DNA from: Limnothrix sp. CACIAM 69d
Lineage (GTDB): Bacteria > Cyanobacteriota > Cyanobacteriia > CACIAM-69d
Length of the DNA: 64,000 bases
Direction: 5' to 3'
Assembly: GCA_001913845.2 (NCBI GenBank)
Contig: MKGP02000015.1
Location: 1-64,000, forward strand
Within the stretch, counting starts at the first letter, position 1. Each line of letters opens with the position of its first letter. This document shows, piece by piece, positions 57,979 through 58,578 of the stretch. Position numbers and translations under genes: made by a program. The notes under the pieces were generated by a model that saw only the letters and a list, made by a program, of their open reading frames with translations, did not search any database and was not told where the DNA came from.

Positions 57979-58179
57979 CTAAGCCGGCTGGCGAAACAGT
58001 GTTGATAGATAAACCCGCGACACACGCCGATCGCTCTCCCCGTTTTGCAACAGAAAAAGCGACAGAGCCGCCGCAAACACCCGGTTCAAATCCCAGTCGG
58101 GATGCACTTCCAAATAATCCTTAAGGGCTTCGTGGAGTTCTTCAGGAATTTCCGCCACGATGCTAACTGTGCCACTCAT
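57979..58179 (-). CDS. DUF2811-family small protein
   Basis: The 66-residue product MSGTVSIVAEIPEELHEALK, then DYLEVHPDWDLNRVFAAALSLFLLQNG, matches the DUF2811 family of cyanobacteria. The ribbon-helix-helix-like layout (strand, then two helices) could point to DNA binding, but function is unknown. ATG 58179 is used; the longer frame to 58242 lacks conservation. It is divergent from trpB. Confidence 0.85.
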   Translation of the reverse strand: MSGTVSIVAEIPEELHEALKDYLEVHPDWDLNRVFAAALSLFLLQNGESDRRVSRVYLSTLFRQPA

Positions 58180-58299
58180 CGGCAAAACCCCAGCCACATT
58201 GGTAAGCGGCAACATTGTGCGCCAGGCTCCCGGCGATGTCAATGCTGCGAAATATTGCGATCCGGCTCAAAAACTCAGAATTTTTCCTGGATAGCACAT

Positions 58300-58478
58300 A
58301 TTTTTACTCATTTAATTTACATAAATTTATTAAAAAGCGCCTTTTATGAGAAGCCGGGCGATCGCCCAAAACAATCCCCAACCGAACGACAAACCGTATC
58401 GTTGGCGACACAGCCTGTGGAAAACTCCGCCTTTTCTGTGGAAAACTTGGGGGTCTTCTGTGGAAAACCTGTGGAAAA
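58300..58478. other. AT-rich stretch with four phased DnaA-box-like sites
   Basis: Four exact copies of TGTGGAAAA (reverse of TTTTCCACA) start at 58416, 58437, 58459 and 58470. The steps are 21, 22 and 11 bases, i.e. whole helical turns. TTTTCCACA is the DnaA box consensus reported for cyanobacterial oriC. About 80 bases away (58300-58337) is TTTTTACTCATTTAATTTAC and adjoining AT-rich DNA, as a duplex-unwinding element would be. No dnaA or dnaN gene is here, so it may instead be a DnaA-titration or regulatory site for trpB. Confidence 0.45.
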
Positions 58479-58578
58479 CTTTCCCCCAAGATAAGAATTT
58501 TCCCTTTGCAAAATGATTTGCATCCTCAGAAATCCTTTCCGGGGGTCTTGGATCGTCAGCCCAGCGCCCAATGCGATA

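Follow-up and report, generated by a model that had tools for sequence, protein, structure and literature searches.

A phased array of DnaA-type boxes in a putative, class-wide control region of the small cyanobacterial gene DUF2811

The Bacillus subtilis gene sda has DnaA boxes upstream. It encodes a small protein and its transcription is DnaA-dependent (PMC5295017), which makes it the nearest working analogue of the locus described here, an array of four DnaA-type boxes lying 5' of a DUF2811 (PF10929) gene in a 64,000-nucleotide stretch (the window) of a contig of the cyanobacterium Limnothrix sp. CACIAM 69d. Other DnaA-box arrays are located away from the origin, oriC. In B. subtilis, the removal of all six DnaA-box clusters (DBCs) leads to early initiation, and in Escherichia coli the non-origin arrays datA, DARS1 and DARS2 modulate DnaA, with datA possessing five boxes, datA and DARS2 relying on IHF or Fis, and their location with respect to oriC being important (PMC5295017). 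In cyanobacteria, with their many chromosome copies and light-dependent growth, the control of initiation is poorly known. The oriC of Synechococcus elongatus has been mapped to the vicinity of dnaN, with DnaA binding to it (PMC7198777), this binding drops in the dark (PMC6478999), and several lineages, including some free-living ones, have lost DnaA altogether (PMC7198777).

Like the DBCs and the E. coli loci, the window array is a DnaA-box cluster outside oriC. It differs from the DBCs in its association with a single gene family and the promoter of that family, with which it is copied, and titration of DnaA is only a candidate role for it; it differs from datA and the DARS loci in its linkage to a gene rather than to a position relative to oriC. 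The similarity with sda lies in the small size of the DUF2811 protein and in the phased boxes found upstream and conserved with the gene, DnaA control of DUF2811 being a putative further parallel. DUF2811 is however cyanobacterial and not tied to sporulation, its boxes are far upstream in a rigid module that includes an HLR1-like site, and nothing was found that would place DUF2811 and Sda in one family. Based on the comparisons between genomes presented below, DnaA probably binds the array and controls DUF2811, which itself probably acts in the DnaA pathway in an sda-like manner.

Exact copies of TGTGGAAAA were found on the + strand at 58416, 58437, 58459 and 58470, as reported in a first-pass annotation of this DNA, and the rest of the window contains none in either orientation. 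The adjoining AT-rich stretch that it described was also recovered (58302-58335), with 91% A+T compared to 46% for the window and fewer than 1 in 10,000 window 34-mers being as AT-rich. As the steps between the four sites (21, 22 and 11 bp; span of 63 bp on a single strand) are multiples of about one helical turn, the boxes lie on about the same helix face. On the sense strand of DUF2811 (-), all are exact matches to the DnaA box TTTTCCACA and align with an array found class-wide: the box farthest from the gene (58470..58478), a box 11 bp from it (58459..58467), box 4 in the numbering of that array, a further 22 bp away (58437..58445) and among the two best conserved boxes of the alignment, and box 5, the nearest to the gene, 21 bp from box 4 (58416..58424). 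A AATTCTTAT motif at the far border of the array (58491..58499, - strand) was conserved across the class in a 34-sequence alignment. The alignment also revealed a conserved weak inverted DnaA-like box (TTGGGGATT on the sense strand; 58373..58381, + strand), which takes the form cTGgGGATT or TGTGGA at this point of the alignment and is located about 44 bp from box 5; this box and the DUF2811 gene beside the array had both been missed previously.

The identification of the four repeats as DnaA-type binding sites is strongly supported by comparative evidence, namely the presence of the same motif in the oriC cluster next to dnaN in this genome and the distribution of box pairs among genomes with and without dnaA. 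In shuffled versions of the window, exact TGTGGAAAA matches averaged 1.06 per 64 kb, and at least four, scattered anywhere, occurred in 3 of 100 shuffles. This count, which ignores clustering and concerns this one 64-kb window, would leave some room for repeats that arose by chance or bind another protein; given that the array recurs class-wide, and that box pairs vanish in genomes without dnaA, such an explanation is exceedingly improbable.

The DUF2811 gene (57979..58179, - strand; 66 aa; Pfam E = 1e-28) begins with an ATG at 58179, a start codon picked by conservation, and is divergent, with the array 5' of it. A DNA search of relatives recovered the same array in other families. Among the matches listed, 72 distinct box clusters were obtained from 26 genomes, of which 23 were 5' of DUF2811 and shared a single relative orientation, 22 were 5' of dnaN, 16 were 3' of guaA and 11 were elsewhere, while a reversed-pattern control gave zero clusters in 78 genomes. 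Defining a chain as at least two boxes with at most one mismatch, spaced by 10-12, 20-23 or 32-33 bp on the sense strand within 900 bp upstream, a phased chain was present for 80 of 95 DUF2811 genes (77 genomes, 70 of them with a chain), compared to 0 of 95 on the antisense strand and 0 of 1900 dinucleotide shuffles. Among the 15 genes without a chain, one had only 280 bp of upstream sequence, and three chain-less genomes of family f14 retain one box, 46 bp from an inverted one. A set of 80 named genomes, largely Nostocales, had 111 exact boxes in the 900 bp upstream of DUF2811, with spacings of 11, 21 and 22 bp dominating, and none beyond 900 bp upstream or in the 2 kb downstream. By this measure of sequence conservation, the array is part of a predicted DUF2811 control region conserved across the class Cyanobacteriia.

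The genes on the far side of the array differ between lineages. In this genus, the array is directly 5' of trpB, a + strand reading frame that begins just beyond it and might be its target, but other genera have quite different genes at this place while DUF2811 stays, and within the genus the distance to trpB reaches about 450 bp (G001). As this neighbour is genus-specific, the regulation of trpB by the array was rejected as very improbable.

Where a genome has two or three DUF2811 genes, the array is mostly present at more than one of them (for example in G006, G011, G030, G038, G048, G062, G069, G071, G078). As the paralogous copies mostly have their own arrays, control of the gene is favoured over a purely positional role. 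This bears on the main rival explanation, in which the array would be a locus for titrating or inactivating DnaA, comparable to datA or a DBC, whose position by DUF2811 was inherited and for which gene regulation is not the purpose. Several phased boxes of high similarity are indeed found at datA and the DBCs (PMC5295017), and a second array outside oriC recurs 3' of guaA, where it could not serve as a promoter of guaA. Moreover, the G050 genome has a phased array with an inverted box (L237:1502-1574) downstream of ispE-DUF3082, the place of DUF2811 in other families, and no DUF2811 was found at that place. Besides the arrays of the paralogues, the rigid spacing to the DUF2811 promoter argues in the opposite direction, as does the loss of DUF2811 itself along with dnaA, which is not the behaviour of a bystander gene. 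Titration is therefore an unlikely account of the array as a whole, and a possible secondary effect that may coexist with regulation.

The decisive comparison concerned dnaA itself. No DnaA match was found in 18 of 390 genomes of the class, and in these DUF2811 was absent (13 genomes), broken by stop codons (two pseudogenes, in G371 and G298; L324, L325) or intact (three genomes). By comparison, all 12 dnaA-possessing relatives from the same or neighbouring groups had an intact DUF2811 and phased arrays, and overall DUF2811 was intact in 89 of 90 genomes with dnaA versus 3 of 18 without (Fisher p = 1.4e-14, uncorrected for ancestry). The losses fall in several groups (f31/g131, f33/g79, f33/g82, f33/g152, f34/g135, f36 and f42), and in genera g79 and g135 the dnaA-lacking species are without DUF2811 and the dnaA-possessing species have it.

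The boxes also depended on the presence of DnaA, being gone or reduced in the genomes that lack it. Box pairs were missing in 16 of the 18 dnaA-lacking genomes, the other two having a short tandem repeat (G258) and one box pair (G358), and were present in 12 of the 12 relatives. Two dnaA-lacking genomes, G318 and G358, have one exact box, compared to three phased boxes in G294, a genome of the same genus with dnaA. The dnaA-lacking genome G139 retains DUF2811, AATTCTTAT and the promoter block with TTGACA but not a single box, whereas G275 and G379, of the same genus and with dnaA, keep four and three boxes, respectively. This comparison of sequences is close to a natural experiment and suggests that it is for DnaA that the boxes are maintained. 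More broadly, the joint loss of DUF2811 and dnaA points to a DnaA-linked control factor that would have gone unrecognised.

Nostoc-type genomes keep the array with weaker boxes. DnaA has been reported to be dispensable for replication in Nostoc sp. PCC 7120, and the retention of the array is compatible with a regulatory role of DnaA there. If DUF2811 belongs to the DnaA circuit, as proposed more tentatively below, its control would partly explain why Nostoc and similar lineages retain dnaA.

The control region has a class-wide order, which is also the layout of the window. Toward DUF2811, it consists of AATTCTTAT, five boxes separated by steps of 11, 11, 22 and 21 bp, about 44 bp leading to the weak inverted box, an HLR1-like site (TTTTTGTAAAGNAATGTAAC), a conserved block, TTGACA, 17-19 bp, CACAAT and DUF2811. 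In the window, the AT-rich stretch corresponds to the HLR1-like (RpaB-type) element TTTACATAAATTTATTAA (58316..58333, + strand), with at most two mismatches to the consensus (G/T)TTACA(T/A)(T/A)NN(G/T)TTACA(T/A)(T/A) (PMC11633204). At this threshold, the consensus was found upstream of 31 of the 95 DUF2811 genes, including that of the window, versus 1.7 expected. The promoter comprises a -35 element, TTGACA (58237..58242, - strand), conserved class-wide, and a -10-like element, CACAAT (58214..58219, - strand), with a 17-bp spacer; TTGACA with a -10-like hexamer occurred in 54 of 95 upstream regions compared to 0.8 expected. The spacer of this promoter (58214-58242) is 17 bp in this genus and 19 bp in many other lineages, and C-rich, and the promoter may need an activator. 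An exact TTGACA was present 100-260 bp after the last box for 62 genes, in 29 of which it was located at 182-184 bp, and the start of box 5 is 182 bp from TTGACA in the window; unlike this spacing, the distance from TTGACA to the DUF2811 domain was variable (78 to 460 bp). The leader gave no Rfam match at the gathering threshold, only chance-level ones. As in the HLR1/RpaB-controlled promoters, an HLR1-like direct repeat precedes the TTGACA promoter (PMC11633204), and no case of HLR1 paired with a DnaA-box array was found in a literature search. Literature searches likewise found no paper naming DUF2811, only an unrelated match for DnaA-box clusters with cyanobacteria, and none combining DnaA, S. 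elongatus, oriC and ChIP-seq.

What the comparisons show is the array with its fixed geometry, its association with DUF2811 and the joint loss with dnaA; from these observations we infer DnaA occupancy, the direction of regulation and the function of DUF2811. In the proposed mechanism, DnaA would assemble on three to five tandem boxes on one helix face, together with the weak inverted box, some 183 bp ahead of a putative sigma-70-type promoter, with the HLR1-like (RpaB-type) site midway. Binding of DnaA in vivo would affect DUF2811 transcription and thereby couple it to the state or amount of DnaA, while an RpaB-type regulator at the HLR1-like site may couple it to light or redox. DUF2811 could in turn feed back on DnaA or replication, and would most simply be a small feedback or checkpoint protein acting on replication, working like Bacillus sda. 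That DUF2811 is an unrecognised member of the DnaA circuit, as an initiation regulator or effector, under joint control by DnaA and an RpaB-type light/redox regulator, is proposed more tentatively, with a little less than even confidence.

Several observations weigh against this model. The array is 183 bp from the -35 element, an unusual distance for direct contact with RNA polymerase, and looping, a wrapped complex or an indirect effect has therefore to be assumed. The HLR1-like site of the window is degenerate in its second half, and the -10 element is weak with a spacer that is often 19 bp. Three genomes lacking dnaA retain an intact DUF2811, and a further role of the protein is thus possible. 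Finally, two AlphaFold runs of DUF2811 were of low confidence (predicted local distance difference test of 72 and 66; all-helical), and a Foldseek search with one DUF2811 model matched no solved structure. A ribbon-helix-helix fold, for which the sequence pattern was suggestive, was rejected as Pfam, the PDB sequence search, AlphaFold and Foldseek gave no support to it.

The analysis names one small gene that nearly all dnaA-possessing genomes have and most dnaA-lacking ones have lost, together with a control module at which DnaA and a light/redox regulator might come together. With a specific gene and a specific module named, the question becomes testable in standard laboratory strains.

The array had also been likened to an origin, and this proposal was not supported. 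The source genome is a 4.57 Mb draft of 100 contigs, with three paired exact-box clusters, on contigs C9, C21 (the window array) and C53 (3' of guaA). The first-pass annotation was right that neither dnaA nor dnaN is near, as dnaN is on C9 and dnaA on C35. The C9 cluster contains 11 exact boxes in both orientations within 240 bp (L060:8986-9223), with dnaN about 600 bp downstream, and is the probable oriC, located beside dnaN and not dnaA; the 18 kb read at the dnaA locus (L078) contained none. The oriC and the window array, in the same genome, share the TTTTCCACA boxes and a similar helical phasing, but the latter comprises four tandem boxes and one weak inverted box by DUF2811. Phased boxes close to an AT-rich stretch would suit an origin of replication, be it the main or a secondary one, and cyanobacteria are able to start replication at several sites (PMC7198777). 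However, the AT-rich stretch is the HLR1-like site within the promoter region, and the array follows DUF2811 and its paralogues rather than dnaN or dnaA. As an oriC-type cluster adjoins dnaN on another contig, the array is not considered to be an origin, which has only a very slight probability. The GC skew of two complete relatives (G029 and G034), sampled coarsely (20 x 20 kb), was irregular.

The C53 array (L061:9670-9720) consists of three exact boxes with steps of 21 and 21 bp, 3' of guaA, which is convergent with a cation-efflux gene. Of the 26 genomes listed, 16 carry an array at this position. The possibility that this guaA-linked array is equally universal was rejected, as nine other guaA loci that were checked have no exact box on the 3' side of the gene. 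Arrays of three boxes spaced by about 21 bp were also found away from both guaA and DUF2811 (L229, L231 and L232, in G010, G064 and G032, respectively), and their locations look as if the second array can move.
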